Below are positions 3,170 through 59,867 of a stretch of 64,000 nt of DNA, one piece after another. The stretch spans positions 38,580 to 102,579 of the forward strand of contig NZ_KB890434.1 in the NCBI RefSeq assembly GCF_000373105.1, given 5' to 3'. Position numbers and translations under genes: made by a program. The notes under the pieces are model-generated. The model was not told the DNA's origin and searched no databases. It saw only the letters and a program-made list of their open reading frames with translations. Position 1 is the first letter of the stretch; each line of letters begins with the position of its first letter. Source of the stretch: Neolewinella persica DSM 23188. GTDB lineage: Bacteria; Bacteroidota; Bacteroidia; Chitinophagales; Saprospiraceae.

Positions 3170-5616
3170 TATCGGCGTACTTCAGCTCCCAATTGTTTAC
3201 TGAGGCTGCCTTCTATGGAAGACATGACTTTGTCTACCTGTTTGTCCTTGAGGGTTTGTTCGTCGCTTTCCAGCTGGAAGCTGACGGCGTAACTTTTCTT
3301 ACCCGCACCGAGTTGTTCTTCGTTTTCATAAACGTCGAACAGATTGATGTCGGTAAGGAGTTTTTTCTCGGCTTTCCGGGCGAGCCGTTCGATATCGGCA
3401 AAGCTGACTTGCTTATCGAGGATAAGCGCGAGGTCACGGCGGACCGAGGGGTATTTACCCGGCGTGGAAACCTGAACGGGCTTTTTAGGAAGCACCTTCA
3501 GGACGTTGTCCCAGTTGATGTCGGCGTAGAAGACATCAGATTTTATTTGGCGGGCACGCAGGTGCAGGGGAAGGACCTGGCCAAAGTCAGCTAAAACCAT
3601 TGGCCCTTTGTGGTAACGCAGACCGTAGCTGAATTCATCAGCCGGTGCCTCGTCGGTCCGGTAACCGGTAATGCCAAGCCGCCGGAAGACGAGCTCAACG
3701 GCTGCCTTCACGGTGTAAAACCCAACTTCGTTCTTCCCCTTCGGGGTAGGGTGCCAGGTCTCCGCTTTCTGCTGACCGGTTAGGGTCAGGGTCAGGTGGT
3801 TAACTTCTTTGTACTGCTCGCCTTCTAAATGATAGCTTCTGCCAAATTCGAAGAGCCGCAGGTCATTTTGCTGGCGGTTCAGGTTGTGGGCTACGGTGCC
3901 GAGGGCGCTTTGTAGCATTCCCGGGCGCATGACGTTGAGGTGAACGTTGGAGGTGTTGTTGATGTACACCAACCCTTCCATTTGCTTGTCTTTTTCCACT
4001 TCGCCGTAGAACCGGCTTTCGTCGAGGGACAGCGCCATCATTTCGTAGTAACCATTGGTGGCCAGGAGGTCGCCAATTAGTTCGCGGATGTAGTTGGGAT
4101 CCGGGTTCGGAGCAACGATCATCGCCGTGGTAATCATCTGCGGAATCGGAACATTGTCGAAACCGTAGATGCGGAGAATTTCTTCAATTATGTCGATCTC
4201 CCGGAGGACTTCGGACTTGTTGGTCGGGACTGCCACGACGAAGCCGTCGTCATCGTTGCTAACGATGTTCATTCCCATGCTTTTCAAGATGCTTTGCACC
4301 TGCGGCCGCGCCAAATCAGCACCAATTACATCCACCACCCGTTGATCACGGACCTTAATCTCCAGCGGTTTAACCGGGTTAGGGTACAGGTCGAGCAACT
4401 CGCTGGTTACTTCACCACCGGCCAGTTCTTCCAGCAGGAGTGCGGCCCGCTTAAGGGCGTAGACCGTGATGTTGGGGTCGCTGCCCTTTTCGAATACTCG
4501 CGCGGCATCGGTCCGCAGGGTGTGGCGCATGCTGCTGCGCCGGGTAGTTCCCGCTTCGAAATGTGCCGCTTCGAGGAAAATTTTTGTGGTGCCCTCACTC
4601 ACGCCACTATTCGCACCGCCGAATACTCCGGCGATACACATTGGCTGATGGTTGGCATCGCAGATCATCAGGTCGTCAGCGCTGAGGGAGCGCTCGACGT
4701 CGTCGAGGCTGAGGAATTTTGTTCCTTCCGGAAGCTTTTCCACAACGATCTCACCGCCACCGATTTTGTCCAAATCGAAGGCGTGCAGTGGTTGGCCAAG
4801 TTCGTGCAGAACGAAGTTGGTAACGTCTACTACATTATTGATCGGCCGCACGCCGATGGCCTGTAGCCGGGTCCGGAGCCACTTAGGGCTGGGGGCCACG
4901 GTCAGGTTCTCAATGGTCAGGCCCGCGTAGCGTGGTGCCTGGGTTGGGTCCTTTACGGTGACTTTTACCGGTGTACGACTACCTGCATTGAAGGCACTGA
5001 TGTCGGGCCGTTGAACCGCCACACTTTTATCGTGATTAACGTTGAGCGCCGCCGCCAGGTCAAAGGCCACACCCAGGTGGTTGGTCGCGTCGGAGCGATT
5101 GGGGGTCAGGCCAATATCGTAAACGTAGTCTTCTTCAAGCTCGTAAACTTCAGCGGCGGGAGTGCCGGGCTTAAATGGTTTGTCCAAAACGATGATGCCG
5201 TCGTGGCTTTCGCCCAACCCGAGTTCGTCTTCCGCACAAAGCATTCCTTCAGAAACTTCTCCCCGGATCTTGCCTTTTTTGATTTTGAAGGGATCGCCGC
5301 TCATTGGGTGCAACATAGCACCGACGGTAGCTACTACTACGTGTTGGCCGGCGGCAACGTTTGGTGCTCCACAGACGATGGAGACGGGCTCGCCCGCTCC
5401 GGTATCGACCTTTGTTAAGGACAGGCGATCTGCCCCGGGATGCTTTCCACACTCCAGTACATGGCCAACGACCACACCTGCAAGACCGCCGGGAACGGAC
5501 TCAACTTTTTCCATGCCTTCTACCTCCAGCCCAGTGCCGGTAAGTACTTTGCCGATGGCTGTTGGTTCGATATCAATTGCTAAATACTGGCGGAGCCAGT
5601 TGAGGGACACTTTCAT
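3169..5616 (-). CDS. pheT: Phenylalanine--tRNA ligase beta subunit
   Basis: PheT is the beta subunit of the cytoplasmic (alpha-beta)2 enzyme that charges tRNA-Phe. The 815-residue product has the full set of domains. It starts MKVSLNWLRQYL, then has an EMAP-type tRNA-binding domain (about 40-155), the B3/B4 editing region (with NRSDATNHLGVAFDLAA nearby), the B5 domain (about 400-480), the catalytic-like core, and a C-terminal ferredoxin-fold anticodon-binding domain starting near KYPSVRRDLALILD. The ATG at 5616 lies 6 nt after a TAnnTTTG box. The alternative start three codons upstream would lie inside that spacer. Two copies of the GCACCTGCG motif lie within the coding sequence. pheS is not in the window. 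Confidence 0.96.
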   Translation of the reverse strand: MKVSLNWLRQYLAIDIEPTAIGKVLTGTGLEVEGMEKVESVPGGLAGVVVGHVLECGKHPGADRLSLTKVDTGAGEPVSIVCGAPNVAAGQHVVVATVGAMLHPMSGDPFKIKKGKIRGEVSEGMLCAEDELGLGESHDGIIVLDKPFKPGTPAAEVYELEEDYVYDIGLTPNRSDATNHLGVAFDLAAALNVNHDKSVAVQRPDISAFNAGSRTPVKVTVKDPTQAPRYAGLTIENLTVAPSPKWLRTRLQAIGVRPINNVVDVTNFVLHELGQPLHAFDLDKIGGGEIVVEKLPEGTKFLSLDDVERSLSADDLMICDANHQPMCIAGVFGGANSGVSEGTTKIFLEAAHFEAGTTRRSSMRHTLRTDAARVFEKGSDPNITVYALKRAALLLEELAGGEVTSELLDLYPNPVKPLEIKVRDQRVVDVIGADLARPQVQSILKSMGMNIVSNDDDGFVVAVPTNKSEVLREIDIIEEILRIYGFDNVPIPQMITTAMIVAPNPDPNYIRELIGDLLATNGYYEMMALSLDESRFYGEVEKDKQMEGLVYINNTSNVHLNVMRPGMLQSALGTVAHNLNRQQNDLRLFEFGRSYHLEGEQYKEVNHLTLTLTGQQKAETWHPTPKGKNEVGFYTVKAAVELVFRRLGITGYRTDEAPADEFSYGLRYHKGPMVLADFGQVLPLHLRARQIKSDVFYADINWDNVLKVLPKKPVQVSTPGKYPSVRRDLALILDKQVSFADIERLARKAEKKLLTDINLFDVYENEEQLGAGKKSYAVSFQLESDEQTLKDKQVDKVMSSIEGSLSKQLGAEVRR
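3549..3566 (-). repeat. GCACCTGCG-family dispersed motif, copy 1 (in pheT)
   Basis: Plus strand reads GGCGGGCACGCAGGTGCA. Together with its flanks it is almost identical over about 30 bp to the intergenic copy at 32482-32499, although this one codes for PheT residues. Confidence 0.8.
4296..4312 (+). repeat. GCACCTGCG-family dispersed motif, copy 2 (in pheT)
   Basis: GCACCTGCGGCCGCGCC, identical over 17 bp to the intergenic copies at 23963, 30263 and 34400, but inside the pheT coding sequence. Confidence 0.8.
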
Positions 5617-5622
5617 AGGCGG

Positions 5623-5630
5623 CAAAGGTA
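5623..5630 (-). promoter_or_regulatory. TAnnTTTG -7 box of pheT
   Basis: On the minus strand TACCTTTG ends 6 nt before the pheT ATG. In Bacteroidota this element is centred near -7, so transcription would start almost at the start codon. Confidence 0.65.
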
Positions 5631-5862
5631 AAAAAGGTTTGGCGGGTTTTTAAATACCCGCGCCAGAGGAACCCTCACAGGCATGATCGCCTTTCAGCGA
5701 AATATCCTGCCATAACCACTTTTTTAGGGTAGGACATGACTGAAGTTACCTGGTAACTAAGCACCGAAATGGAGAAGTTGCGCCCGGATGGCTTAATTTA
5801 ATGGCCTTCAAAGGTTAAATTTTTTCATATGTCGTGACTTTTTTTCTCTATACCTCATATTA

Positions 5863-5891
5863 TTGTGCCATCTTTGTTAACCTTACCTTTG
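5863..5891 (+). promoter_or_regulatory. Bacteroidota promoter of the T9SS gene at 5933
   Basis: TTG at 5863-5865 and TACCTTTG at 5884-5891 are separated by 18 nt, close to the TTG-N19-TAnnTTTG consensus. The ATG at 5933 is about 40 nt downstream. Confidence 0.65.
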
Positions 5892-8492: not shown

Positions 8493-8633
8493 TACCGCAT
8501 TAGGCTGCTCGCTTCGATCGTTTTGGGGTTTAAGAATCCACAAGCTCATTTTAAGTGAGAAGATTAATGGTCTGGGTATTACCCAAATAAACCACGGGCT
8601 CATGAGCAGTAGCGAGCATCCCCCTGCGGCAGC

Positions 8634-8669
8634 TTACAAGACTATAAAACTATCGAACTACAAGACTTT
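8634..8669 (-). repeat. 8-nt TAG array anchored on the glycosyltransferase stop codon
   Basis: In the gene direction, TAG at 8660 (the stop codon), TAG at 8652, TAG at 8644 and TAA at 8636 recur at exact 8-nt spacing (TAGTTCGA, TAGTTTTA, TAGTCTTG, TAA). Because 8 is not a multiple of 3, these stops fall in all three frames. One further unit lies inside the last codons. Confidence 0.85.
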
Positions 8670-9848: not shown

Positions 9849-9865
9849 GCACCTGCGATCTCGCC
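9849..9865 (+). repeat. GCACCTGCG-family dispersed motif, copy 3
   Basis: GCACCTGCGATCTCGCC, intergenic, followed by CTGATTAG. It forms an inverted pair with copy 4 at 9954-9970. Confidence 0.85.
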
Positions 9866-10048
9866 TGATTAGTCAAATAGTCTACAGTCAAGTAGTCTTT
9901 AGTACAGTCCTACTCTATCTGACTACAAACTTCTTAACTATCGGAATAATGAAGCGAGGCCGCAGGTGCAAAGAAGAGTTAAAGAGCAAAATTGGAATAC
10001 ATTGTCCAACTCCCCCGCTACTTGACTCTCTGACTGTAGACTACTTAA
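9866..10048. repeat. AGTC/TAGT degenerate array between glycosyltransferase and guaB
   Basis: Two blocks of 7-8 nt units: TAGTCTAC, AGTCAAG, TAGTCTT, TAGTACAG at about 9876-9908, and their inverse at about 10017-10051. The second block starts at the guaB stop codon (TAG at 10051, TAG at 10043 and a further TAG at 10020, read on the minus strand). No gene is supported here. Confidence 0.7.
9954..9970 (-). repeat. GCACCTGCG-family dispersed motif, copy 4
   Basis: Plus strand GCGAGGCCGCAGGTGCA, intergenic. It is the inverted partner of copy 3, so the two enclose about 90 bp of AGTC-type array. Confidence 0.85.
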
Positions 10049-11622
<1,574 letters not shown>

Positions 11623-11745: not shown

Positions 11746-12459
11746 TCACCCCGCAGTGATGGCCAAAGTAGCTATCCCAACCCGCAACTCCGGGTGGTGC
11801 TCCAACAGTATGTTACCGCAAAAATCAAGTGTAGCGCCGGTCGTCAGTACATCGTCAATCAACAGGAGATGCTTTCCGGTAAAATCACCGGTGCCGGTAA
11901 TGAAAGAATCCCGGGTGTTTTCAACCCGTTCAAAACGACTCTTCTTCGTTTGGGAACCTTTGAAACTTCTTCTGCGTAACGCATCCGCATACATTGGTTT
12001 TCCGAGTGCCCTTGAAACGCCCCGGCCAATTTCTTCCGCCTGGTTGTACCCTCTTTGGTGGCGACGGTCAGGGTGTATTGGTACGGGGACGAGGCCGTCC
12101 AGGTCCTGAAGTGCCGGATGTTCTTTTAGCAAGGCTCCTAACCGCTGACCTAATTCTACGCCAATATCTGGTCGGTGATGGTATTTTAAGGCATGGATCA
12201 ACTGCTGGCAGACGGTACCCGTATTAAAAAAGAGCAGGGCCGCTCCGAAGGTGAGGGGGAGGCGACCAGTCAGCCGATCCGTAAGTTCATTTTCGGGCAG
12301 CAGCCAGTGCTCGGTCAGCGCAAGGTCGCTTTGGCAGGAAAAGCAGAGTTGGGTGGGTTGGCCACGGGTGACCGTCTGCCGGCAATTGAGGCAGAGCCGG
12401 GGGTAAAGCAGACCGGAGAGCCCTTCGCCCAAGGTGCGAAATTGTTGCTTAATTGACAT
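11746..12459 (-). CDS. comF: ComF family phosphoribosyltransferase-like protein
   Basis: ComF proteins are cytoplasmic, have a PRTase fold and are needed for natural transformation in several bacteria; their reaction is unclear. The 237-residue product starts MSIKQQF. An N-terminal zinc-ribbon-like part has CLNCRQ and CFSC (two CxxC pairs). Next come the family segment LVPVPIHPDRRHQRGYNQAEEI and the PRPP-binding motif LLIDDVLTTGAT. The ATG at 12459 is chosen because the frame upstream of it is inside the preceding gene. It overlaps the 3' end of the outer-membrane protein gene by 11 bp, which suggests translational coupling. Confidence 0.9.
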   Translation of the reverse strand: MSIKQQFRTLGEGLSGLLYPRLCLNCRQTVTRGQPTQLCFSCQSDLALTEHWLLPENELTDRLTGRLPLTFGAALLFFNTGTVCQQLIHALKYHHRPDIGVELGQRLGALLKEHPALQDLDGLVPVPIHPDRRHQRGYNQAEEIGRGVSRALGKPMYADALRRRSFKGSQTKKSRFERVENTRDSFITGTGDFTGKHLLLIDDVLTTGATLDFCGNILLEHHPELRVGIATLAITAG

Positions 12460-13243
12460 ATTTCCACTTACGCATGAAGCGCAGCCCGAAGCTGATCTCG
12501 ATGGTGAAGTTTCGGATTTGCCGGGCACCGATTGTTCGGGGTGCGCCGCCAAATGGATCGATCACGTTCTCGATTGGCCCTTGATTGTACTGAAAGGTAA
12601 AGTCGGGATTTGCGGTGATTTCGATAAATCCACTCGTTTTATCGGAGATGGGAATGAGTGCGCCGGCACCAAAAATTGCACCAGCCATGATTGGCCTGAC
12701 GGACCTGGTAGGCTCCTCGACCTCGATAGGGTAATTTAGCCTAAAGGCGGCACTTACGCTATTGCTGAGGTCATTGTACTCGCTCAAGTTGTTGCTGAGT
12801 GTGTAGTCTACTCTTAATCCTAAAACGTAGTAAATATCTGCAGCACGCGTATAGGCGAAAACAGATTTGCCACCAATTGCGGCCGAGACATTCTGGAAGC
12901 GAAAATCATCTGCTGGCAAGGTGACCTGCCCGCCATTAAAGGTGAAACCTCGCCGCCGACTGATTTTACTGCCTCTGACGTGATATCCCAGCTGGCCAAA
13001 GAAGCTAAATCTCCCTTGGGCAGGAATGGTTTCGTAGTATAATGCACCGTGGTAAGCGAGCAATAATTCCGTTTCTAACCCGGACCAATCCTGATTGCCA
13101 AGGCTCGGTCCGCCCTTGATGCCAAAGAGATAGCCACCCCAATCGACGCCATATTCACCTTCTTGTTCTAGGTCCTGAGCGATGAGCTGGTTACTGCCGA
13201 ATGAAATCGTCAGTAACAGAAGTAAAGAGAGTTTTAGCCGCAC
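12449..13243 (-). CDS. Probable outer-membrane beta-barrel protein
   Basis: A 264-residue protein with an N-terminal signal peptide ending near LIAQ. It has alternating hydrophobic/polar strands rich in Gly, Tyr and Phe (LFGIKGGPSLG, RFSFFGQLGYHVRG, YYVLGLRVDYTLSNN), typical of small Bacteroidota barrel proteins. The C-terminal strand ISFGLRFMRKWKYVN would close the barrel, although the last residue is Asn rather than aromatic. It precedes comF with an 11-bp overlap. A TACCTTAG promoter-like box lies at 13265-13272. No specific function can be assigned. Confidence 0.65.
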   Translation of the reverse strand: MRLKLSLLLLLTISFGSNQLIAQDLEQEGEYGVDWGGYLFGIKGGPSLGNQDWSGLETELLLAYHGALYYETIPAQGRFSFFGQLGYHVRGSKISRRRGFTFNGGQVTLPADDFRFQNVSAAIGGKSVFAYTRAADIYYVLGLRVDYTLSNNLSEYNDLSNSVSAAFRLNYPIEVEEPTRSVRPIMAGAIFGAGALIPISDKTSGFIEITANPDFTFQYNQGPIENVIDPFGGAPRTIGARQIRNFTIEISFGLRFMRKWKYVN

Positions 13244-14850: not shown

Positions 14851-17800
14851 CTACCTCAAGAGTAGTACGTCACCTGCCAATTCGACTGTCCGGCCATCGA
14901 GTAATTGCACTTTTACCTTGTAAATATAAACGTCTTGCTCGTTGATGTCACCATTCGGTGCAAAGCCATCCCAGCCCCAGGAGGCATCTGTGGGGCTTAC
15001 TGTATCCTCAAGGTGATAGACCATTGCTCCCCAACGATTGAAAATGGTGAAATTGGAAAAATTCAGCACCGTCCTCGGTCTGGCATAGAGCCGGAAAAGA
15101 TCATTGACCCCATCCTCGTTAGGAGTGAAGACGTTTGGAACATAAACTGGAACAAAATCATCAATGATTACCTCCACCATAGTGGAAGCAAAGCAGCCGA
15201 ACTCATCCATCACCGAAATCTGATAAGTTGTATTCTCGGTCGGGCCGACAAAAAAGTTGTCGTTGAAGATCATGGAGTCTGGCCATGGGCTAACCTGAAA
15301 CCCCGTCACGTCCAGGTTAGTTAGTACCCTAATGTTGGCACTATCACCCTGTGCAATGATCGTGCGTGAAGGCGTAGCAAAAACCTCAGCAAGTGGAGGT
15401 GGGCCGAAAGTGAAGGTCTCTGAAAGCAGGCAACCATTGACGTCTTCTACCTCTAACAAAGACCGGCCAACGGGCAACAGCAAGGTGTCCGGTAAATTGT
15501 TTATCGGCCTGAATCCACTGTTATTACCAATACGGAAAAGGTAAGGACTTACGCCGCCTTGTACGTCTCTTAAAATGATTGATGGCAAGGTGTCACGACA
15601 GTTGGCATCTACCTCCGAGAGTACGGAAACCAGAATTTCGGGGGCCGTTAGTCCTATCCTGGCTTCCGCCCGGCAACCCCGGGAGCTCGTTACCTGAACA
15701 TTATAATTCCCGGCCGGCAGGTTCCGTAGCTCCGCATTTTCTCCACCGTTATTCCATTGGAAGGTGTAAGGTGGTACTCCTCCGCTGGGTATGGCCAATA
15801 CTTCTCCATCCGAACCATCGGCACAGCTTACGGCAAAAACGCCGTCTCCGCTCAGGATGTCAATATTTACCGCCAGGTCTGTTTCTCTGACGGTGATGCT
15901 TCCTGAACTGATGGCCGGGCAGGGACCTTCACCCGTCACGTCTATTATGGTTACCACGGAGCCCGCCGGAACCAGCCGGTTGATGGTGGTCGAACCCGCC
16001 ACAAGGGTAATTCTTTCCGTAGGGTTTGAGCTGAGAATGACCGTTGCAATCCCTGGCCCATCATAAGAAAAGTTAATTTCCAGTTCTCCTCCCGGACAAA
16101 TAATCCCATCTCCTGAAATCCTCACTTCAGGAATAGGGATGGTACTAACGGTGACGAAAACAAGGCTGTCACAACCGTAACGATCCGGAATGTCGAGCTG
16201 GGTAAGCACATTATTCGCCGCGCCTTCGAACAGTACATCGCCGTACTGAAGGGTTGTGCCTTCGCAAATGGCCGTATCCAGCACACCAATTACCTCTGGG
16301 TGAAAATCGACGCTCACCATTACCGTACTGTCGCAGCCAGCAGCAGAAGGAATGGGAAGGCGGACCATACCGCGTGGACGGTTGATGTCGAAGTATTGCC
16401 CAAAATAAAACAGACGGGTGTAATTGCAGATCGTGGTATCCAATACGCCCATGGCTTCCGGGAAGAAGTTTACCGTCACCATCACCGTGCTGTCACATCC
16501 GTTTACTGATGGTGTTGGCACGACGACTTCTCCGGTAGTCCGGTTGGAGTGGAAAATTTGACCGAAGTAATTCAGTCGTTGGCCGGGGCAGAGGGTGGTG
16601 TCAAGTGTACTGATTGATGGCGCGAAGAAATCAACAGTCACCAGCACCGTACTGTCGCAACCACCTGCTGAAGGTGTGGGAACTATTACGCTTCCGGAAC
16701 GACGGTTGTTGTTAAATGTCTGGCCAAAGAAGTTTAATTGGGTGCCGATACAGAGGGTAGTGTCAAAGGCGCTGAACGCAGGTGCAAAGTATTGAACGTT
16801 GACGAGCAAGGTACTGTCACAGCCGTTGACGGATGGAAACGGAAGGACGGTTTGTCCCATTAGCCGGTTTTCGTCAAAAACGTCACCGAAAATATTTAAA
16901 CGTTGCCCCACACAAAGAACCGTGTCCAATCGGCCAATAGCTTGTGGGAATACCGCCACTGGAAGGCTACGGTCAATGGGCCGTAAACAGCCGTTTCCAT
17001 CGGTAATGTCAAGTAGCCTGAGGGTGACGTCCTGAAGTGAAGTCAGTCCCAGGTCAGCAGGACAAATGGACTCCTGTCCGGAGGTCGAACGGTTAATGGT
17101 GCGTATTTGCTCGGGTTCGCCAGGTCTGCTGAAGGCATAGTTAATGGCAAACGGCGGAGTACCCGACAGGCCAAGCTGCAGGTTAGTGCAGCCGTCGTCA
17201 CACACACCGGTAATTCCGGAAGTCGTGAGGCCAGGAGTATCGGTAAAGGGTGAGATGATTACGCGTCCGGTCGCTTCACATCCGGAAGCGTCAACGATGG
17301 TCACCCGGTAGGAACCAGCGCGCAGGCTATCTGCTACCGCCAGCGTGTCACCGTTGCTCCATTGATAAGAGACGGGACCGAAGGGGTTAGTTGGTGTTGC
17401 GGTTGCGGAGCCCAGTGGGTTGTCGCAATCAGGCTGGACGGTAGACGTCATTAAACCGATCTGACATGGGCCAGGGTTGACAATGGCGGAACATTCCGTT
17501 GTACACCCGTTCTGGTCCGTTATGATCAGGTCATATGTTCCTGGGTTCAGATCGGTAAAGGTTGTATCTGAGTTCGCGCTCAGCGAGAAGGAGCCCAGGT
17601 CCCCACTCAGCATTACAACACCTACTGCACCTGCGTTCCCGACTGATACTGTGCCGTCCATTACACCCGCAATGGTTTCCGCAGTAGCACTGCAATTCAT
17701 GGTGAGCAAAGGTGGTTGTGTGATGATAATGTTGTCGGTAGCCTGGCACCCATTGGCGTCGGTTACCACTACAGAATAAGTGCCATTTATGAGGCCATCA

Positions 17801-22799: not shown

Positions 22800-23120
22800 G
22801 AGATCAGTGTTCAGGTTTCAGGAATCAGGCTAAGGAGTCAGTATTCAGTACCTCAGGTTGTCGGGCTATTGTTTTTCAGACTGAACTTCACGAGCATACC
22901 GAACCTCCCTGTGCGGCAGCACTAGTAAGACCAATAGGACCACAATACTAAATTAGGCGCGCGATCGCAGGTGCAGTGGAATACGTTAAGAAGCAAGCTG
23001 ATTTTGTGCCATTATCCTTACTGACAAGTTGGTTTTCCCACCCCTAAGCACTGATTGCCGTGCACTGAAAACTGAATACCGGGCACTGAACCCTAAGCAC
23101 TGAATACTAAAACCTAAGCC
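22800..23120. repeat. Convergent gap with inverted degenerate arrays
   Basis: A 321-bp gap between convergent genes. The left end (about 22803-22866) repeats CAG-TTCAG-like units. The right end (about 23040-23117) repeats the inverse, CTGAAtaC / GCACTGAA. Each block starts at a stop codon (rnc on the left, the DUF2064 gene on the right). One GCACCTGCG copy lies between them. No gene is seen. Confidence 0.7.
22956..22975 (-). repeat. GCACCTGCG-family dispersed motif, copy 6
   Basis: Plus strand GGCGCGCGATCGCAGGTGCA, intergenic. It has two extra bases in the variable part. Confidence 0.85.
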
Positions 23121-23962: not shown

Positions 23963-23979
23963 GCACCTGCGGCCGCGCC
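23963..23979 (+). repeat. GCACCTGCG-family dispersed motif, copy 7
   Basis: GCACCTGCGGCCGCGCC, intergenic, preceded by CTCCCTT and followed by CTTATTAG. Confidence 0.9.
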
Positions 23980-29035: not shown

Positions 29036-29698
29036 ATGTCCTACACAATCGCCATCGACGGTTATAGCGCCTGCGGCAAATCAACGCTGGCCAAGGCCAT
29101 GGCGCGACAACTCGGCTACCGGTTCATTGATACGGGAGCCATGTACCGTATGGTGACCTTATATTTTTTACGAGAGAATATAGACATTGATAATGCGGGT
29201 GCGGTCGCAGGTGCATTGGAAGGTTTACGGGTTGACTTTGTCCCGGGCTCTAACCATGCACTACTCAACGGCGAGGACGTTGAAATGGAAATCCGGGAAC
29301 CAGCAGTATCGGGGTTCGTATCTCCGGTGGCGGCCATCTCTGCCGTCCGCCGCTGGGTAGTCCCACAGCAAAGGGAAATGGGCAAAACCGGCGGTATCGT
29401 GATGGATGGCCGGGATATCGGCACCGTCGTCTTTCCCGATGCTGACCTGAAGCTTTTCGTCACGGCAAGTATCGACGTTCGTACCGACCGTCGCCTGGCC
29501 GAAATGATGGCCAAGGGCGTGGCCACCACCCGCGCCGAAGTCGCGGCTAACCTCGCCCAACGCGACCACATCGACAGTACCCGAGCCGACAGCCCTCTTC
29601 GCCAGGCCGAGGACGCCATCCTTCTCGACAACAGCAACCTCTCTTTGGGAGAATTTATCGCAGCAGGTATGGCGGAGGTGGAAAAACTAAGCGCTTAA
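29036..29698 (+). CDS. cmk: Cytidylate kinase
   Basis: Cmk phosphorylates CMP and dCMP using ATP. The 220-residue protein has the P-loop GYSACGKSTLAKAMA at residues 8-22, DTGAMYRMVTLY just after it, MDGRDIGTVVFPDADLKLFVTAS in the core, and the C-terminal RDHIDSTRADSPLRQAEDAILLDNS segment that binds the substrate. The length is normal. A GCACCTGCG copy lies inside the coding sequence at the AVAGAL residues without lengthening the protein. The next gene begins 4 nt downstream. Confidence 0.96.
   Translation: MSYTIAIDGYSACGKSTLAKAMARQLGYRFIDTGAMYRMVTLYFLRENIDIDNAGAVAGALEGLRVDFVPGSNHALLNGEDVEMEIREPAVSGFVSPVAAISAVRRWVVPQQREMGKTGGIVMDGRDIGTVVFPDADLKLFVTASIDVRTDRRLAEMMAKGVATTRAEVAANLAQRDHIDSTRADSPLRQAEDAILLDNSNLSLGEFIAAGMAEVEKLSA
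29198..29215 (-). repeat. GCACCTGCG-family dispersed motif, copy 8 (in cmk)
   Basis: Plus strand GGTGCGGTCGCAGGTGCA, coding for GAVAGA in the NMP-binding part of Cmk. Confidence 0.75.
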
Positions 29699-30262: not shown

Positions 30263-30279
30263 GCACCTGCGGCCGCGCC
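30263..30279 (+). repeat. GCACCTGCG-family dispersed motif, copy 9
   Basis: GCACCTGCGGCCGCGCC, intergenic, preceded by TTCCCTT. Identical to copies at 4296, 23963 and 34400. Confidence 0.9.
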
Positions 30280-32481: not shown

Positions 32482-32499
32482 GGCGGGAACGCAGGTGCA
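32482..32499 (-). repeat. GCACCTGCG-family dispersed motif, copy 10
   Basis: Plus strand GGCGGGAACGCAGGTGCA, immediately upstream of the GNAT start codon. Its flanks (TTATTT before, GGGGAA after) match the pheT copy at 3549-3566. Confidence 0.9.
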
Positions 32500-34399: not shown

Positions 34400-34416
34400 G
34401 CACCTGCGGCCGCGCC
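34400..34416 (+). repeat. GCACCTGCG-family dispersed motif, copy 11
   Basis: GCACCTGCGGCCGCGCC, intergenic, preceded by CTATCCT. Confidence 0.9.
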
Positions 34417-34977: not shown

Positions 34978-37900
34978 TTGAAGAGTATAAAAACCTCAAC
35001 CTTCCCGAAGTAGATAAGCAGATCCTGGAATTCTGGGAGCGTGAAGATATTTTCGCGCGCAGCATCGAAGAACGGGACGTTGACAACTCCTTCGTCTTCT
35101 ATGAAGGACCACCTTCTGCCAACGGTATGCCGGGCATTCACCACGTGATGGCCCGTACCATCAAGGACATCTTTTGCCGCTACCAAACGCTGACCGGTAA
35201 ACGGGTAGAGCGTAAAGGCGGATGGGATACCCACGGCCTGCCGATTGAACTAAAGGTGGAGTCTGAATTGGGCATCACAAAGGAAGACATCGGGACGAAG
35301 ATCTCGGTCGATGACTACAATAAGGCCTGCCGTGAAACGGTCATGCGCTACAAGGGCATATGGGACGACATCACGGTAAAAATGGGTTATTGGGTTGACC
35401 TCGAGAACCCCTACGTGACCTACGAGAAAGAATACATGGAGTCCGTCTGGTGGCTGCTGAAGCAGATCTACGATAAGGGCCTGATGTATAAGGGGTATAC
35501 CATCCAGCCTTATTCTCCGGCGGCGGGTACCGGCCTGAGCTCGCATGAGCTTAACATGCCCGGTGCTTACCAGGACGTGAGTGACACTACCGTGGTAGCT
35601 ATGTTTAAGGCACAGAAAAAGGATGATTCAGCTTGGCTGTGGAGCCTTCCGGTTTCGCCTCCTGTAGAAGATAGTGAAGAAGAGGGCGCGGTCGCAGGTG
35701 CCGTAATGGGATCTGAAGACAGCAGTGCGGTATACCTCACCGCCTGGACGACGACGCCGTGGACGCTGCCAAGTAACACGGCGCTCACCGTCGGTCCCAA
35801 AATAGAATACGTAAAGGTCAGGACCAGGAACCAGTACACCGGTGACGCCAACGACGTCGTGATGGCCAAAGAATTAGTCAGTAAATGGTTTGGTGGCCAT
35901 AACCAGCCCGTGATCGAAGCCATCTCCGCCCCCTTCCCCGGTAGTAAACTGGAAGGTATCCGCTATGAGCAGTTGCTGGAAGGGCCAAAGCCTGCTGATG
36001 GTGACGCCTTCCGCGTCATCTCCGGCCACTTCGTGACCACCGACGCCGGTACCGGCATCGTCCATACCGCCCCCAGCTTCGGACAGGATGATATGGCGGT
36101 GGGCAAAGCCAACGGCATCGGCTCCCTCACCCTGGTAGACAAACAGGGTAAATTCACCGACGACGCCGGTCTCTTCGCTGGTCGCTACGTTAAGGACTAC
36201 AAGAACGATCCAGCGTATAAGGACGTAAACGTAGACATCGCCATCCACCTCAAAACCGTGGGCCTGGCCTTCAACGTCGCCAAATACAACCACAGCTACC
36301 CACACTGCTGGCGGACGGACAAGCCCGTGCTCTACTACCCGCTAGACAGCTGGTTCATCAAAGCAAGTGCCGTCAAAGAACGGATGTCGGAACTCAACGA
36401 TACGATCAACTGGCAGCCGGAAAGCACCGGCACCGGACGCTTTGGCAAGTGGCTCGAAAACCTTCAGGACTGGAACCTGAGCCGTTCCCGTTACTGGGGC
36501 ATTCCGCTTCCGATCTGGAGAAGTGAGGACGGCACCGAGGAAGTTTGCATCGGCTCCATTGCAGAACTTAAAGCCGGCATTGACCTGGCCAATAAAGAAC
36601 TAGGCCTCAGTCAGGAAGTGCCGCAAGACCTTCACCGGCCTTACATTGATGACGTCGTACTGTGGCAAAACGGCAAGAAGCTTATCCGCGAACTCGACCT
36701 CATCGACGTTTGGTTCGATAGTGGCTCCATGCCCTACGCACAGTGGCATTACCCTTTCGAGAACAAAGACAAATTTGACCGGGTTTTCCCCGCCGATTTC
36801 ATCGCCGAAGGCGTAGACCAGACCCGCGGTTGGTTCTACACCCTCCATGCCATCGGTACGATGGTGTTCGACTCCGTTGCGTACAAAAATGTTGTCTCCA
36901 ACGGCCTGGTACTGGACAAGGAAGGTAAAAAAATGTCGAAGCGTCTCGGCAATGCCGTGGATCCGTTCGTAACCATCGACAATTATGGCGCCGACGCTAC
37001 CCGCTGGTACATGATCAGCAACGCCAACCCCTGGGATAACCTCAAATTTAACGAGGAGGGCATCCAGGAGGTACGTCGTGTCTTCTTTGGCACCTTGTAC
37101 AACACCTATGGCTTCTTCGCCCTCTACGCCAACGTTGATGGCTATGACCCGACGACGGACAAGAAGGTGGCTAAAAAAGACCTTGCTGAACTTGATCACT
37201 GGATCATCAGCCGTTTGAACTCGCTCACGAAGGAGGTGACCGAACTGTACGCCGCTTACGATGCTACGCCGGCCTGCCGGGCCATCGAGAACTTCGTCAA
37301 CGCCGAGTTGTCCAACTGGTACGTGCGCCAATGCCGTCGCCGTTTTTGGAAGGGCGAAATGTCCACCGATAAGCGTGCAGCTTACCAAACCTTACATGCC
37401 TGCCTGGTGCGGGTGGCGCAGCTGATGAGCCCCGTGGCACCTTTCTACGCCGAGCAGCTCTTCCGCGACTTATTGGGTGCCAGCTCGTCGGCCGAGGCGG
37501 GCGCTAGCCCTGACTCGTCCGCCGAGCGGAAGGCTGACTCCGTCCACTTAAGCATCCTGCCCCAGGCCGATGATTCCCTGATCGACAAAGACCTGGAAAC
37601 CCGTATGGACTATGCCCAGCGCATCAGTTCCCTCACGCTTTCCCTGCGTAAGGCAGATAACCTCCGGGTGCGCCAGCCGCTGCAAAAGATCCTGGTGCCG
37701 GGCACCGACGCTGATTTTCAGCGCCACGTAGAAGCCGTTGCCGACATCATCAAGAGCGAAACCAACGTAAAGGAAGTTGAATTCCTGACCGATGGCGACT
37801 TCCTGAAAAAGAGCATCAAACCCAACTTCCGGGTACTCGGCAAGAAAGTCGGTAAGCGGATGAAGGACGTTGCCGCAAAGATCGGAGAGATGACACCGGA

Positions 37901-40020: not shown

Positions 40021-40038
40021 TGCACCTGCGTTCGCGCC
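40021..40038 (+). repeat. GCACCTGCG-family dispersed motif, copy 13
   Basis: TGCACCTGCGTTCGCGCC, intergenic, preceded by CTTTCCC. Confidence 0.88.
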
Positions 40039-44792: not shown

Positions 44793-46086
44793 AACTGTCC
44801 ATCACCTTCTCCAATTTCTCCCGAATCCGGTCATTACCCAGGTTGCCAAGGCTGCCGAGGTGGGTATGCTTCAGTTCGGTGGGCGGCACGAAGGTGCCGG
44901 CTTCGATGTCGCGGCCCACCTGGGTGTAAGCATCGCGGAAGGGCACGCCTTCCAGTACCAGGTTGTTGACGGCTTCCACGCTGTAGAGGTAGGTGTATCT
45001 TGGGTCGGTAGGGAGTTCCTGGGCGCGGACGCTGGTGCGGGGGAGGGCGTAAAGAGCAATGGCCAACCCGTCCTCCAGCTGATCCAGTGCGGGGAAGATG
45101 GCTTCCTTCAGGAGTTGGAAGTCGCGGTGATAGCCCGAAGGTAAGTTGGCGGTCAACTGGCTCATCTGTGCCGGTAGCGATTGCAGCAGGTTACAACGGC
45201 CCCGGAGCAATTCGAATACGTCCGGATTCTTCTTGTGTGGCATGATGCTGGAGCCGGTCGTCAGCTCGGGGGGCAATTGCAGGAAACCGAAGTTTTGACT
45301 GCTGTACAGGCATACGTCCATTGCCATTTTGCCAACGGTTTGGGCCAGACCGGCAATGGCAAAGGCTACCAGCAATTCCGTCTTTCCCCGGCCCATTTGG
45401 GCGGCAACGACGTTGACGACTGGTTCGTCAAAGCCAAGTAATTCAGTAGTGCGATCCCGGTTCAAGGGGAAGCTGGAGCCGTAGCCAGCGGCAGAGCCAA
45501 GCGGGTTCTGGTTAACGACGTCGTAAACACCCTTCCACATCCGCAGGTCATCGATCAGCGCTTCGCCGTAGGCACCGAACCACAGTCCGAAGCTGGATAC
45601 CATCGCAATTTGCAGGTGGGTGTAACCCGGGATCAGCTTGTCCTTATGTTCATCGCTCAGGTCAGTTAGCGTCCGGCTAAGTTCTGCGGTCTGTGCAACA
45701 ATGCCTTCGATCCGGTGGCGGAAGTACAGCCGAAGATCCACCAGTACCTGGTCGTTTCTGCTTCTGCCAGAGTGTATCTTTTTCCCGTCATCGCCAAGGG
45801 CACGGGTCAGTAGTAATTCCACCTGGCTGTGTACGTCTTCCACCCCATCTTCGATCACAAAGTCTCCGGCCAGGGCTACCGCATGCAGCTCCTCTAACTT
45901 TTCCTTGCACCTGCGCGCCGCGCCCGCATCAAGCAAACCTACTTCGGAAAGCATCTGGACGTGCGCCAGAGATCCCTGAATGTCAAAAGGGGCCAGCTCA
46001 AGATCGAGCTCACGGTCGCGCCCGACGGTGAAGTCAGCAATACGTTGATCGAGGTCGTAGTCTTTTTCCCAGAGTTTGGTTGGCAT
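44746..46086 (-). CDS. argH: Argininosuccinate lyase
   Basis: ArgH splits argininosuccinate into arginine and fumarate, the last step of arginine synthesis. The 446-residue product has GRSRNDQV (residues about 108-115), the THLQIAM segment and the superfamily signature GSSIMPHKKNPD (near 275). It ends in a basic, Ser/Pro-rich tail (ANPKGSPAAGR) encoded in the overlap with the convergent gene. A GCACCTGCG motif lies at residues AARRCK without changing the length. A 7-nt array ends just before its start codon. No other arg genes are nearby. Confidence 0.96.
   Translation of the reverse strand: MPTKLWEKDYDLDQRIADFTVGRDRELDLELAPFDIQGSLAHVQMLSEVGLLDAGAARRCKEKLEELHAVALAGDFVIEDGVEDVHSQVELLLTRALGDDGKKIHSGRSRNDQVLVDLRLYFRHRIEGIVAQTAELSRTLTDLSDEHKDKLIPGYTHLQIAMVSSFGLWFGAYGEALIDDLRMWKGVYDVVNQNPLGSAAGYGSSFPLNRDRTTELLGFDEPVVNVVAAQMGRGKTELLVAFAIAGLAQTVGKMAMDVCLYSSQNFGFLQLPPELTTGSSIMPHKKNPDVFELLRGRCNLLQSLPAQMSQLTANLPSGYHRDFQLLKEAIFPALDQLEDGLAIALYALPRTSVRAQELPTDPRYTYLYSVEAVNNLVLEGVPFRDAYTQVGRDIEAGTFVPPTELKHTHLGSLGNLGNDRIREKLEKVMDSFKRDANPKGSPAAGR
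45907..45924 (+). repeat. GCACCTGCG-family dispersed motif, copy 14 (in argH)
   Basis: GCACCTGCGCGCCGCGCC, preceded by TTCCTT as in intergenic copies, inside argH. Confidence 0.8.
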
Positions 46087-51342: not shown

Positions 51343-51359
51343 GCACCTGCGGCCCCGCC
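51343..51359 (+). repeat. GCACCTGCG-family dispersed motif, copy 15
   Basis: GCACCTGCGGCCCCGCC, intergenic, preceded by ATTCCTT and followed by a TAGTCTTG, TAGTTCGG, TAGTCGG, TAGTCTGG array (51367-51397). Confidence 0.88.
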
Positions 51360-51470: not shown

Positions 51471-54221
51471 TCAATCTAAGCCCTTTGCCCTTTCAATAGG
51501 CTTGACCCCTTCCGCCATCCACATGGGCATCGGTTCTCCCATCAAATAATGATCAAAGAAGGCAGCCATGCGTGTCTGGAAATCGGCCCGATTTGCAGTT
51601 TTCAGTGGCCAGTGCGGCTCGCCCCGGTAATTGAGCATCCAGGCAGGTTTACCCAATCGGCGTAAAGCAGTAAACCACTCAATGCCCTGCTCCCACGGCA
51701 CCGCACTGTCGTGATCGTTGTGCAGGATCAGCAGCGGTGTATTGATCTTGTCGGTAGTGAACAGCGGGCTGTTTTCGTAATATCGCTGGAAGTGACTCCA
51801 CGGCGTGCCGCCGATGCGACTCTGCGTATGCTCATACTGAAACTGCCGGCTTCGCCCCGAGCCCCAGCGAATACCGCCATAGGCAGAAAACATGTTGACC
51901 ACCGGTGCGCCAGACTCGACGGCGGCGAACAGGTCGGTCTTCGTCACCAGATAGGCTGCCTGGTAACCACCCCAACTATGTCCCTGCATCCCAATTCGCT
52001 CTTTGTCGATGAACCCTTCCGCCAGTAGGCTGGTCAAACCACTCATCACACAGTCGTAGGCACTTTCGCCAGGGTACCCAATACGGTAAACCACGTCCGG
52101 ATTGAAAATAACGTAGCCCTTGCTGACGTAGTGGCTGTAGTTGATGCTACTCCGCCCCACTAAGGGTGTCTGGTGGCGGTAGACCCGCTCGCTGCTCCGC
52201 TCGTAGTAGTTGACCATCAGCGGGTATTTCTTGTTTGGGTCGAAATTGTCTGGTTTTACCAACTGGCCCTTAAGGGTACGGCCCTGCAGATCGGTCCATT
52301 CATAGGTTTCATTGGTGCCCCAGGCGAAGTCTTTTTGTTGAGGGTTGGCCTGAGATATCCTGGTTCCTTCTTTAGCCATGTCGCCGGTCAGTCGCAGATC
52401 AGGGAATTCCCTGAAGTCGGATCGGGTATAGAGGTACTGTTCGGCCGACCGTGCTTTGGCGAAATCGCCGAAATTCTTCGGGCCGGAACGTAAACTGGTG
52501 AAGCTGCCGTCGGTCAGCTTCAACCAACCGTAACCTTCATGGTAAGTGTCTTGGTGAAACGTGGCGGCCAATACCTTTTCCGAGGGATCGATGAACCGAT
52601 TTTCCGGATCGAGATCCTGAAGGAAGTAGCGAATGTTCTTCTCCCGGCCTTTTGTTAGTCGAACCGGTTTTTCTTTCCCGGCGGGGTCCAGTTGCCAGAG
52701 GTCGTAACGATCAGCTACTAAGAACTTGTTGCCGCCGGACAGCGTGCCCTGGTAACCATAGCTGCTGGGGTGCATCGGCCGGTCGTTGATCTCGTCGTAG
52801 AAAACGCCGGTGGCGTTGGTGGTCAATACGTGCGCCTGGCCATTGGCGGCATCAAAACTGTTCCAGGTGGTGTCTGTCTGGTTGTACCAAACCAGGTATT
52901 TACCGCCTTCGAGCCAGCGGGCGGGGGTGACTTGGCCGTCGAGCATTGCTTTGCGTTCGCCCGTGCGCAGATCCACTACGGTGGTATTCCGGGCGCCGGG
53001 CCCGCCTTCCCACATAGTCTCTTTGGAGTAGGGACGATCGTCATAGACCATTACATAGTGGCCGGTGAGGTCGTTGGGTTGGTAATCGTAAGGCCGATCC
53101 GGGGTGCCGAGTTGCAGGAAACTGTTGGCTTTGGTCCGGTAAACGGCCAGGAAGGTGCGTTTCTCTTCCGCTCTAAGGCGGAGGTTTTCCTCGGTGTACA
53201 TCCGGTCGTCATCGGTCGTCCAAATTTCGACGTCGGCAATTTCTTCGTCGAGTAGATTAGTGTCACGCTCCGGCCGGCGCGGCGTAGTACCGAAGAAGAG
53301 GTAGTCGCCGTTGTCGCTGAACTCCGGAGTGCGGTCGTCAGAGATGCGGCTGCCTTGCGGCATCCAGTCGAGGGCCTCGCCCGTCAGCTTTTCTGCCGTG
53401 CGGTCATCGCCCTGCCAGTGGTGAAGGTGGAAGGGCTTTTGAGCGTCCTTCGCCTCTTTATTAGCGGTGAGGAAGGCGGCTTGGCTGCCGTCGTTGCTCA
53501 GTGCCAGGGCAGTGTAGTCGCCCTCATCGCTGCTGAGGGTTTGCCACTGTAGATCGTCGGCAAGGCGTAGAATACCGGCTTTCCAGGAGCTGTCCTTGGC
53601 GGTTTGGTGCGCCAGCACTACGGCGGCGTCACGAGCCAGGAGGAAGGATTTTACGCCTTCGAGGTAGAAGCTGTCCGGGGTGCTGAACGACCGCACCAGC
53701 AGTCGGTGCGCATCTTTGTCCAGTCCTTTTTGCAGGCTGTCGGGTAGGGTAGAGTCGGTCGTATAGGCGTAACGACCACTCCAGCGTTCTCCGGTTTTGA
53801 AGTCATAGACCCGGGGAATGATGCGGGGCTCCGGTTCGGTCAGGTGCCATACCAGTAGGCTGTCCATTTTGGCCAGTTTGTCCTTGGCTTTCTTTTTTTC
53901 GGAGAGTTTTAGTGCTTTCACGGTAGCCATGCCTGGCTTGAGCAGACCGATCAGGTGTTGACCATCGTAACTTAGTCGGGCGCGGTGTAGCCGGGGAAAC
54001 CGGCGTTCGGTTTTCGTCTTGCCGTCATAGACTACGGCAATGGGGTCGCCAACGTCTTTTGTCAGGGTGTAAAGGACAAACCTGCCATCGGCACCGATCT
54101 CTTCATCGTCGATCACGTTCCAGGTCTGCATGTCTGGAATGGTGATGGCTTTTTGGGCGCGGCCGCTGGTGCAGAGGAGGGTTAGGAGGAGCAGGGTGGG
54201 GAGGAAGTGGTGGAATCGCAT
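51471..54221 (-). CDS. S9 family peptidase (prolyl oligopeptidase / DPP-like)
   Basis: A 916-residue exported serine peptidase. The signal peptide (FLPTLLLLTLLCTSGRAQ) is followed by a beta-propeller-like region (about 30-640). The C-terminal alpha/beta-hydrolase domain has the nucleophile in MQGHSWGGYQAAYLV (G-x-S-x-G), Asp in LILHNDHDSAVPWEQG and His in YRGEPHWPLK. It should cleave peptides in the periplasm or at the surface. The signal-peptide codons contain a near copy of the GCACCTGCG motif with one mismatch (54156-54173). It is divergent from the gluconokinase gene. Confidence 0.9.
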   Translation of the reverse strand: MRFHHFLPTLLLLTLLCTSGRAQKAITIPDMQTWNVIDDEEIGADGRFVLYTLTKDVGDPIAVVYDGKTKTERRFPRLHRARLSYDGQHLIGLLKPGMATVKALKLSEKKKAKDKLAKMDSLLVWHLTEPEPRIIPRVYDFKTGERWSGRYAYTTDSTLPDSLQKGLDKDAHRLLVRSFSTPDSFYLEGVKSFLLARDAAVVLAHQTAKDSSWKAGILRLADDLQWQTLSSDEGDYTALALSNDGSQAAFLTANKEAKDAQKPFHLHHWQGDDRTAEKLTGEALDWMPQGSRISDDRTPEFSDNGDYLFFGTTPRRPERDTNLLDEEIADVEIWTTDDDRMYTEENLRLRAEEKRTFLAVYRTKANSFLQLGTPDRPYDYQPNDLTGHYVMVYDDRPYSKETMWEGGPGARNTTVVDLRTGERKAMLDGQVTPARWLEGGKYLVWYNQTDTTWNSFDAANGQAHVLTTNATGVFYDEINDRPMHPSSYGYQGTLSGGNKFLVADRYDLWQLDPAGKEKPVRLTKGREKNIRYFLQDLDPENRFIDPSEKVLAATFHQDTYHEGYGWLKLTDGSFTSLRSGPKNFGDFAKARSAEQYLYTRSDFREFPDLRLTGDMAKEGTRISQANPQQKDFAWGTNETYEWTDLQGRTLKGQLVKPDNFDPNKKYPLMVNYYERSSERVYRHQTPLVGRSSINYSHYVSKGYVIFNPDVVYRIGYPGESAYDCVMSGLTSLLAEGFIDKERIGMQGHSWGGYQAAYLVTKTDLFAAVESGAPVVNMFSAYGGIRWGSGRSRQFQYEHTQSRIGGTPWSHFQRYYENSPLFTTDKINTPLLILHNDHDSAVPWEQGIEWFTALRRLGKPAWMLNYRGEPHWPLKTANRADFQTRMAAFFDHYLMGEPMPMWMAEGVKPIERAKGLD

Positions 54222-54371: not shown

Positions 54372-54376
54372 CCCCC

Positions 54377-55778: not shown

Positions 55779-56750
55779 TCAAATTCCGAAGCCCGCACCC
55801 GCGCCCGCGCCCAAAATCGACATCAGCCAGTAAGCAAACGGCGGCACCAATAACAAGCCATTCACCACTATGGCATACCAGTTCTCGTCCTGCTTGCGGT
55901 AAGTCAGGTAGGTTATTGGTAAAAGGGCCAGATAAGCAAGCCCCAGAGATATGCCCAGATTAGAAGGGTAGATGCATCCGTCCCATAGGTTTTGAGCCAT
56001 CAGAATACAAAAGATCAGTGCGCCATAGACCAGGACCTTGTGCAACCTTGGTCGTTCATTCGCCATGGTTCGAACGCCCTGTGACCGATCAAGAACCACG
56101 TCTCGTAGATCGAATAACATCGCCGCGGCACCGGTGAATAATAGGCGAATGAGACATTCAACATAAAAATTCTGCGCCGTCATTGTTGGAGGAAGACATG
56201 AAAAAGGGGTGATCAAGCCGAGTAAGTCATTCTCTGATTCCGGTACTATAAAAGCGCTAGCAGCAGTGTTGATCACCATAACCGGTAAGACGACGGTCAT
56301 GATCGTCCACGCAACGGCAACCCACACAACTTTTAGGTAGGGCAGGTCCCGTAGTCGCCGCCAGCCAGGCAGCGGCGGCGTTAGATAGAAAACTGTGAGC
56401 GGGACGGCGGCTAAGAGGCACCACCAAATTGCCTTAAGGAAGGTAAAACTAAGGAGAATCGCCAAGGCTATGGACAGGCCGCCTATCCATAGACTCGTTT
56501 TTGGGGCTTCGGCGACAAGTTCATATCGCCGGCTCTGCGGTCGGATGCCGGCACGTTGGAAACTTAAGTAACGATGTAAGGTGTAAACGCCGAGCGTAGC
56601 TAAGAAAATAAAGGAAAGAACGGGCCATTCACTAACGCAGGTTTGATTGCCATACACAAGCCGAAGGCTCAACCAAGACAAGCCCGTAGCCGCCAGCGCA
56701 ATCCAGACGTGCCCGTAGAATACCCAATTGAAAAGGCGGTTAGCGGTCAT
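55779..56750 (-). CDS. UbiA-like integral membrane protein
   Basis: A 323-residue membrane protein with about eight to nine hydrophobic segments. The segment LRDLPYLKVVWVAVAWTIMTVVLPV and the acidic site MLFDLRDVVLDRSQGVRTMA, with the spaced Asp residues of UbiA-type prenyltransferases, suggest this superfamily. The first Asp-rich motif of true prenyltransferases is not obvious, so the activity is uncertain. The C-terminus ends in a short Gly-Ala repeat (LGAGAGAGFGI). It is divergent from the VWA gene. Confidence 0.6.
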   Translation of the reverse strand: MTANRLFNWVFYGHVWIALAATGLSWLSLRLVYGNQTCVSEWPVLSFIFLATLGVYTLHRYLSFQRAGIRPQSRRYELVAEAPKTSLWIGGLSIALAILLSFTFLKAIWWCLLAAVPLTVFYLTPPLPGWRRLRDLPYLKVVWVAVAWTIMTVVLPVMVINTAASAFIVPESENDLLGLITPFSCLPPTMTAQNFYVECLIRLLFTGAAAMLFDLRDVVLDRSQGVRTMANERPRLHKVLVYGALIFCILMAQNLWDGCIYPSNLGISLGLAYLALLPITYLTYRKQDENWYAIVVNGLLLVPPFAYWLMSILGAGAGAGFGI

Positions 56751-59782: not shown

Positions 59783-59784
59783 TG

Positions 59785-59825
59785 TTGGTCAGGTAGTTAG
59801 TTGGTCAGATCGTCAATTGGTAAGT
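59785..59825 (-). repeat. ACCAAC-type units before the M42 start codon
   Basis: In the gene direction ACCAATTGAC, GATCTGACCAACT, AACTACCTGACCAACA end at the ATG. The unit is the reverse complement of the GTTGG units after the ABC-F stop. Confidence 0.6.
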
Positions 59826-59849
59826 TGTTGCGTACTGTTTGACTAATAA

Positions 59850-59867
59850 GGCGGGAACGCAGGTGCA
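59850..59867 (-). repeat. GCACCTGCG-family dispersed motif, copy 16
   Basis: Plus strand GGCGGGAACGCAGGTGCA, intergenic, preceded by CTAATAA (the inverse of the CTTATTAG seen after copy 7). Confidence 0.9.

Follow-up and report, generated by a model that had tools for sequence, protein, structure and literature searches.

The window analysed here, a 64-kb stretch of the Neolewinella persica DSM 23188 genome (contig NZ_KB890434.1), carries a dispersed DNA motif that is most readily recognized by exact copies of its core 9-mer, GCACCTGCG. By our gene calls, which came from a simple open reading frame (ORF) caller of our own together with family scans, seven of the 17 exact copies lie inside genes. 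Two are in pheT, one in the sense of the gene (3557..3565, minus strand) and one antisense (4296..4304, plus strand). Two more fall in a gene for an SprB-like secreted protein at 14851-20016, namely 16777..16785 on the minus strand, a weak match to the full motif (12.3 bits), and 17627..17635 on the plus strand. The others are antisense in cmk (29206..29214, minus strand), in the variable loop of ileS at about residue 241 (35693..35701, minus strand) and antisense in argH (45907..45915, plus strand), where the identical word stands at the same residues in two related genomes (G012 and G020). Nine copies are intergenic: a convergent pair at 9849..9857 (plus) and 9961..9969 (minus); 22966..22974 (minus), flanked by genes for ribonuclease III (22059-22799) and a DUF2064 protein; 23963..23971 (plus); 30263..30271 (plus); 32490..32498 (minus), with divergent genes on either side; 34400..34408 (plus), upstream of ileS; 51343..51351 (plus); and 59858..59866 (minus). 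The last copy, 40022..40030 on the plus strand, is ambiguous, as it falls right at the beginning of a mechanically called ORF (39937-42894) and may precede the true start. An earlier reading of this DNA, made from the sequence alone, had listed 16 copies, ten of them intergenic and six genic; the repeat, the positions (within the motif length) and the same six genic copies stand, but the copy at 17627 had been missed and the intergenic count is lower.

The abundance of the motif is far above what base composition would give. Dinucleotide shuffles of the window (n = 100) contained on average 0.67 exact copies and at most 3. In the whole assembly of 7,080,844 bp, GCACCTGCG occurs 736 + 742 = 1,478 times, about 50 times as often as the same word read backwards (12 + 17 = 29), which served as our specificity control. 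The genome-wide count that the sequence-only reading had proposed as a check thus rules out a composition-level frequency, and its statement that both orientations are about equally common holds for the entire genome. Alignment of 111 exact copies from the first 464 kb sampled of the source genome (G000; 822 kb in total) placed the conserved letters from about -24 to +22 around the core. The layout is a pyrimidine tract, an A/T patch, CC, C, YYT, GCACCTGCG, GCC-S-CGCC-C and an A-rich patch; the motif is asymmetric and not palindromic. An unconditioned weight matrix assigns to the full motif about 45 bp and 34.5 bits, with a strongly conserved block of about 18 bp plus flanks. The letter after GCACC is not fixed (T 169, C 25, A 17 and G 6 among the listed variants). 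The TTATTAG tail, which had been described as a frequent neighbour, follows 9 of the 177 exact copies in 822 kb against 0.16 expected, and is thus enriched yet rare.

With the weight matrix, 277 sites were found in the 822 kb, or one per 3.0 kb, compared with 13 in the reversed sequence, which is approximately the chance level. By extrapolation, the host genome would contain about 2,400 sites. In the window, the matrix adds four near-consensus copies: GCACCAGCG at 45030..45038 (minus strand, 34.4 bits) and again at 54164..54172 (minus strand, 49.0 bits), GCACCCGCG at 55795..55803 (plus strand, 32.9 bits) and GCACCGGCG at 60726..60734 (plus strand, 27.4 bits). A shifted core variant, CATCCTGCG, accounts for 16 of the 277 matrix sites and is possibly a second accepted form of the motif. 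Intergenic positions are preferred, with 98 of the 177 exact copies lying between genes, as called by our own ORF caller, even though 81% of the sequence is coding.

The copies are not only abundant but also regularly placed. The coefficient of variation (CV) of the gaps between exact copies is 0.733, against 0.985 ± 0.070 for random placement, and the largest gap is 15.3 kb, so there is no longer site-free desert in the 822 kb. Among the five longest stretches without a site (13.7-15.3 kb), the four inspected by eye hold secreted-protein and housekeeping-like genes. The most distinctive feature of the spacing is that it depends on orientation. Exact copies in the same orientation were found within 3 kb of each other 10 times where 56 were expected, while opposite copies were as frequent as expected (54 vs 56). 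The same holds for the matrix sites, where 33 same-orientation pairs were seen against 135.8 expected; the depletion persists at 2-3 kb (14 vs 44.6) and ends abruptly at 3-4 kb (48 vs 44.6). When only the orientations were shuffled (n = 2,000), close same-strand pairs numbered 88.2 ± 6.8 and never fell below 65. The gaps on a single strand, with a CV of 0.48-0.50 and a median of 5.4-5.9 kb, match a 3-kb dead zone plus chance.

Words of similar frequency do not show this exclusion to the same degree. The ratio of same to opposite close pairs is 0.19 for the motif in G000, compared with 0.60-2.69 for 60 control 7-mers of like count (of 1,299), and 0.36 in a second species of the genus (G010), compared with 0.66-3.22 for 60 controls (of 637). 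It recurs in relatives that use their own words, with 9 pairs vs 24.4 expected in G010 and 5 vs 12.0 in G019. Eleven other samples, pooled and without simulation, gave 18 same and 49 opposite pairs below 3 kb, and 100 and 111, respectively, at 3-10 kb. Among opposite pairs of matrix sites in G000, convergent ones are somewhat reduced below 3 kb (52 vs 69.7) and divergent ones are in excess (94 vs 69 below 3 kb, and 36 vs 6.9 below 300 bp). In the close back-to-back pairs, at least 67 bp separate two copies whose pyrimidine sides face each other; these pairs are not palindromes formed by overlap and are therefore not hairpin terminators. The strong excess of close divergent pairs appeared in G000 alone, the samples from G010 and G019 being small. 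A terminator or rut-like role was also considered and rejected: genic exact copies run in both senses (48 sense, 31 antisense), and the intergenic copies of the first 464 kb (27 tandem, 21 divergent, 9 convergent) are distributed approximately by the length of each intergenic type.

Motif density at the level of the host is confined, among the sampled genomes, to a single Neolewinella-like genus; the best named matches to the IleS of the source genome are from Neolewinella litorea (73%) and N. aquimaris (72%). At ≥15 bits, the 822 kb of host contain 265 sites, as against 1 in 300 kb of E. coli, 1 in 1,141 kb of other genera (57 loci) and none in 368 kb of 21 further loci, mostly from Saprospiraceae. 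The matrix was used for this comparison because the bare 9-mer is not specific outside the genus, a modest excess over the reversed word, at low counts, being common in many other Bacteroidota (for example, 102/3 in G207 and 132/11 in G169). At two loci from named members of the genus that use other dialects, the matrix matched 1 and 2 times in 23 kb each. Across the 21 genus genomes, GCACCTGCG ranges from 1,491 copies (G005) down to 37 in G010, where it equals the control; it never exceeds 265 in the 39 other-genus genomes and the 295 genomes of the class that were counted.

Samples from the genus also contain other over-represented words. The dialects of the genus are GCACCTGCG, GCACCCGCG and TACCTGCGC, with GCTACTTTG in one species. 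In whole genomes, counts of the word and its control are 968/79 (G019), 672/111 (G016), 639/134 (G020) and 621/85 (G012) for GCACCCGCG. For TACCTGCGC they are 660/49 in G001, with 41-193 copies in other genus genomes, and for GCTACTTTG 1,533/80 in G010, with at most 81 in the other 20. In an IleS tree, several forks of which are open, G010 and G019 are nested among GCACCTGCG species, and it can therefore be deduced that the letters changed inside the clade.

Letters have changed where the place was kept. In the ileS loop near residue 241, G000 and 6 of 16 genus relatives share a copy of the motif, aligned in position and matching in orientation, that is spelled GCACCTGCG in G002, G005, G013 and G014, GCACCCGCG in G019 and GCTACTTTG in G010. 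More generally, 82 of 234 genic sites with an ortholog (17 samples) have a site within 10 residues in that ortholog, against 7.05 if placement were random; these counts are not independent, because relatives inherit sites. In 276 site-ortholog comparisons, the 15 residues around the site are 45.7% identical, compared with 74.7% gene-wide and 75.0% at random positions, and the local value is below the gene-wide one in 237 and above it in 39. An ortholog gap of at least 5 residues lies within 15 columns of the site in 49 of the 276 (random positions, 1.8%), and a further 83 have some gap within 6 columns (random positions, 5.8%). Low local identity and frequent gaps indicate that the sites occupy loose, indel-prone segments. 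The sequence-only reading had held that the copies in pheT, cmk and argH do not look like insertions, and for genic copies in general the orthologs bear this out. Pooling the dialect-bearing samples, in which some dialect words of GC-rich species arise by chance, gave 70 distinct genic sites with an ortholog, 53 of which have an ortholog without the motif. Against the closest motif-less ortholog, net length is unchanged in 31 of the 53, greater by 1-4 residues in 5 and by at least 5 in one, and smaller in 16. It is thus very unlikely that the genic copies are insertions of a mobile repeat. Two observations concern the ileS gene itself. Sequence similar to CCTAACCCCTTAACCCC-like words, which are over-represented in G008, fills the same variable loop in G006, G008 and G017, and CTCAATCCC is over-represented in G017. 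In G014 (L119/L121, L149:15224-19075) and G003 (L120/L122), ileS is split near residue 595 by about 180 extra in-frame residues; those of G014 contain a DUF559 domain, as in an intein-like or homing insert.

The motif is also found in phages. Its 18-letter form occurs in 93 viral-contig stretches, of which 22 have at least two sites at ≥18 bits and seven at least three, with duplicates among them. In one contig of 38.7 kb (3300012037_000001; 36.0 kb scored), encoding an integrase, a repressor, a terminase and a tape-measure protein, there are nine sites, one of them weak (15.3 bits), and the closest same-strand pair is at least 3,586 bp apart. Another (3300009467_000002), with integrase, repressor and anti-repressor genes, has six sites in 20.6 kb and a closest same-strand distance of at least 3,539 bp. 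Since both phages are temperate by their lysogeny genes, residence in such hosts may be how they acquired the motif. In 20 kb of a phage whose terminase is 40% identical, no motif site was found, and searching phage records for near DNA matches to the ileS gene gave none.

We favour, at slightly better than even odds, the explanation that the motif is a putative DNA uptake sequence. Biased transformation would have spread it, in a genus without a recognised type IV pilus ATPase. We commit to it because most genomic hallmarks of uptake sequences are present: abundance, absence of a strand or transcription bias, dialects, even spacing, a non-coding excess and permissive loops, to which an asymmetric motif of 34 bits can be added. 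The likeness to uptake sequences had been suggested by the sequence-only reading; what it did not foresee were the 3-kb strand exclusion and the density in phages, both of which are unlike known uptake systems. In such a scheme, a surface or envelope receptor would bind the motif on free DNA, and fragments bearing it would enter more often and recombine by way of ComEC, ComF and RecA. For motif-like alleles, transfer into recipients would outpace loss, a drive that would fill the genome; a shift in receptor preference would replace the letters at the old places and produce dialects. Because only copies of like orientation behave as redundant at distances below 3 kb, the reading step would be polar: along a tract of ~3 kb it would read a single strand or enter from a single side. 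A travelling one-strand reader would explain the exclusion, whether it acts during import, which is the form we prefer, or inside the cell in the manner of Chi. The fullest version of the proposal is more tentative: Bacteroidota might possess a polar machine for import or processing, independent of pili, that checks incoming DNA strand by strand and needs an oriented 45-bp sign every ~3-6 kb on each strand, such that the chromosome and its resident phages evolved two independent ladders of sites at even spacing, in species-specific dialects.

The components available for import are in part those described for another member of the phylum. ComEC is present in all 21 genus genomes, and the comF gene noted in the sequence-only reading is indeed there, as a comF-like gene at 11746..12552 on the minus strand (phosphoribosyltransferase domain over the cut-off, double zinc ribbon below it). 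In Riemerella, transformation requires comEC, dprA, comF, recA, a DUF5689 protein, an outer-membrane barrel and two more genes, and the authors propose a new transformation machinery; in the accessible portion of that report no pilus gene is among the essential ones (PMC8459023). Since the genus yielded no recognisable ATPase of a type IV pilus or type II secretion system, the receptor would belong to this Riemerella-described route and not to such a pilus. The accessible text on R. columbina states that the species favours its own DNA, with A- and T-rich words only in its k-mer lists and the matter of an uptake sequence left open (PMC7965970). The DUF5689/barrel arrangement was found in one of the 21 genus genomes, G010, where a TonB-receptor-like barrel with a carboxypeptidase-regulatory domain (L268:5673-8474) is directly followed by a DUF5689 lipoprotein (8514-10601). 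This is the architecture of the Riemerella transformation pair, in the genome with the most aberrant dialect; as a single case, it is at most a lead to the receptor. Giant secreted proteins with a type IX sorting-type tail are encoded beside comEC in G000 (L260:15160-19155) and G010 (L262:11671-18429), and are a possible extracellular partner.

Uptake sequences are documented in the Pasteurellaceae and the Neisseriaceae; the DNA uptake sequence (DUS) of the latter is 10-12 bp long, and the Neisseria receptor is a pilin. The uptake signal sequence (USS) of Haemophilus and other Pasteurellaceae is described, in the available parts of the reports, as a non-palindromic core of ~9-10 bp with weaker flanks that is abundant, has no orientation bias, is in excess in non-coding DNA and is fairly evenly spaced (PMC1939737, PMC7811141). 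The Neolewinella motif resembles it in its asymmetric core with weaker flanks, abundance, use of both orientations, non-coding excess and evenness, but differs in its ~45 bp and 34 bits, in the 3-kb same-strand exclusion and in belonging to Bacteroidota without a recognised type IV pilus ATPase. Inverted USS pairs of H. influenzae whose centres lie within 14 bp are described there as terminators, whereas the Neolewinella back-to-back pairs are at least 67 bp apart. For the Neisseria DUS, the available text reports dialects, permissive places, a spacing that fits the recombination tract length and a large number of recent copies too divergent for point mutation (PMC3630211, PMC2397512). Dialects between related species and permissive locations are thus shared with the Neolewinella motif. 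However, the neisserial dialects retain a CTG core, while the core of G010 coincides only in part with those of its sister species; the DUS is bound by the pilin ComP; and, in the part of the report at hand, uptake sequences are absent from recent insertions (PMC2397512), unlike a motif carried by temperate phages.

Several results weigh against an uptake sequence. H. influenzae uptake is independent of orientation according to the available text (PMC1939737), and orientation-blind uptake does not predict strand exclusion. Convergent pairs are reduced mainly below 1 kb (9 vs 23.6) and are normal at 2-3 kb (26 vs 22.9), whereas a one-sided import drive would be expected to remove them up to 3 kb; over 1-3 kb they are hardly reduced (43 vs 46.1), which counts for strand reading over simple coverage. 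Two temperate phages bear the motif at host density. In the 21 genus genomes, one of which (G009) is 55% complete, a PF00437 search that did not extend to pilins gave no recognisable pilus or type II secretion ATPase. Borderline PF00437 hits in 11 of the 21, at 24.9-25.5 bits, were at the cut-off, covered 82-84 of 370 positions and came from frames of ~950 residues or longer; as pilus ATPases they were rejected in the two that were scanned (G010 and G016), both being ClpB. The ileS loop has no site in 10 of 16 genus relatives, and two of the 21 genomes, G004 and G006, are without a clear dialect word in samples of 140 and 100 kb. Finally, the excess of the 9-mer in other Bacteroidota makes the reversed word an imperfect control.

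The main rival, which we consider unlikely though still serious, is a Chi-like recombination signal. Here a helicase-nuclease entering from a DNA end would read one strand and, at the motif, switch from degradation to recombination; phages would carry the motif to survive the enzyme. A polar reader of this kind predicts same-strand redundancy with independent orientations, and it would account for temperate phages that carry the motif at host spacing. A suitable enzyme may exist: a PDDEXK_1 nuclease occurs in a frame of 998-1,147 residues in 20 of the 21 genomes (the incomplete G009 has only a 406-residue frame), and in nine of these, G001, G004, G006, G008, G011, G012, G016, G017 and G020, it lies within ~8 kb of comEC. 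The one examined, that of G012, has a UvrD-type helicase part, but falls below both the AddA and the RecB cut-offs. Only five of the 21, G000 not among them, yielded a second PDDEXK_1 frame (923-1,009 residues), which is perhaps AddB. The Chi site of E. coli, GCTGGTGG, is an asymmetric 8-bp word with about a thousand copies that is read in one orientation, and it agrees with GCAGGTGC at 6 of 8 letters. Chi sites are short words, however, of ~5-11 nt, and we know of none as long as a 34.5-bit motif with an 18-bp strong block plus flanks. Moreover, E. coli Chi lacks the exclusion: in 300 kb of K-12, close same-strand pairs numbered 31 against 28.2 ± 4.9 expected. It is strand-biased in two of three K-12 stretches (9:8, 28:10 and 12:1), whereas the Neolewinella motif shows no replication-strand bias, with strand counts of 63/61 on contig C1 (all 18 bins with negative GC skew) and 62/54 on contig C2 (15 of 18 such bins). 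The dialect word of the G019 sample is split 8 plus to 8 minus. A full change of letters within a genus would also be unusual for Chi. The missing replichore polarity led us to reject KOPS or another segregation sign as well.

A site for a protein that organises the nucleoid or segregates the chromosome, evenly spaced for chromosome folding, is improbable. Even spacing, both orientations and genic copies made without insertion would all fit. However, it is only copies of the same orientation that repel each other, not binding sites in general, and divergent pairs pile up at 67-300 bp in G000; nor would dialect turnover within a genus, presence in phages and the absence of any link to replication direction be expected. 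For the 3-kb exclusion, as distinct from the motif, we regard as more doubtful still that it is a by-product of deletion between nearby direct repeats, which would spare inverted ones. It is chiefly direct repeats that are missing, but short-repeat deletion should fade smoothly and act mostly below 1 kb, in contrast to the depletion that persists up to 3 kb and then stops abruptly, and the copies share only ~18 strongly conserved bp. A small selfish or mobile repeat, REP/RAYT-like or a miniature transposon, which the sequence-only reading had listed as an option, would suit the high copy number, restriction to a genus and intergenic excess, but is highly improbable given the single gain of at least 5 residues among 53 genic sites, length differences of no fixed size, the lack of an Rfam family match in the window, the non-palindromic form and a dialect change at one ileS place that is not transposition.

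Literature searches on Bacteroidota uptake sequences, Lewinella competence and Saprospiraceae transformation gave no description of the motif among the matches listed, and the titles listed for the 9-mer itself concern other subjects. Nor did we find, in the available text on known uptake systems, a report of a strand-specific exclusion. The motif would be a new and differently built case of self-DNA recognition, a phenomenon known mainly from two families of Proteobacteria. If a pilus-free uptake sequence does exist in Bacteroidota, DNA self-recognition arose independently with a different receptor, and the motif would offer a handle on the outer-membrane DNA importer of this phylum. The dialect series within one genus, with places kept and letters changed, would be a natural experiment on a recognition protein co-evolving with about two thousand targets, and the strand-specific 3-kb exclusion would be the quantitative trace of a polar molecular process.

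Other features of the window were noted in passing. Two further families of intergenic repeats, one ACTACAAGACTA-like and the other AACTTGCAACCTGCAACTTG-like, are present (e.g. downstream of 23963 and around 9849-9961). The genes at 38460-39191 and 30345-31682 encode a protein of the SUKH family (SMI1/KNR4) and one whose match is weak and YbjN/chaperone-like, both possibly of an immunity type.

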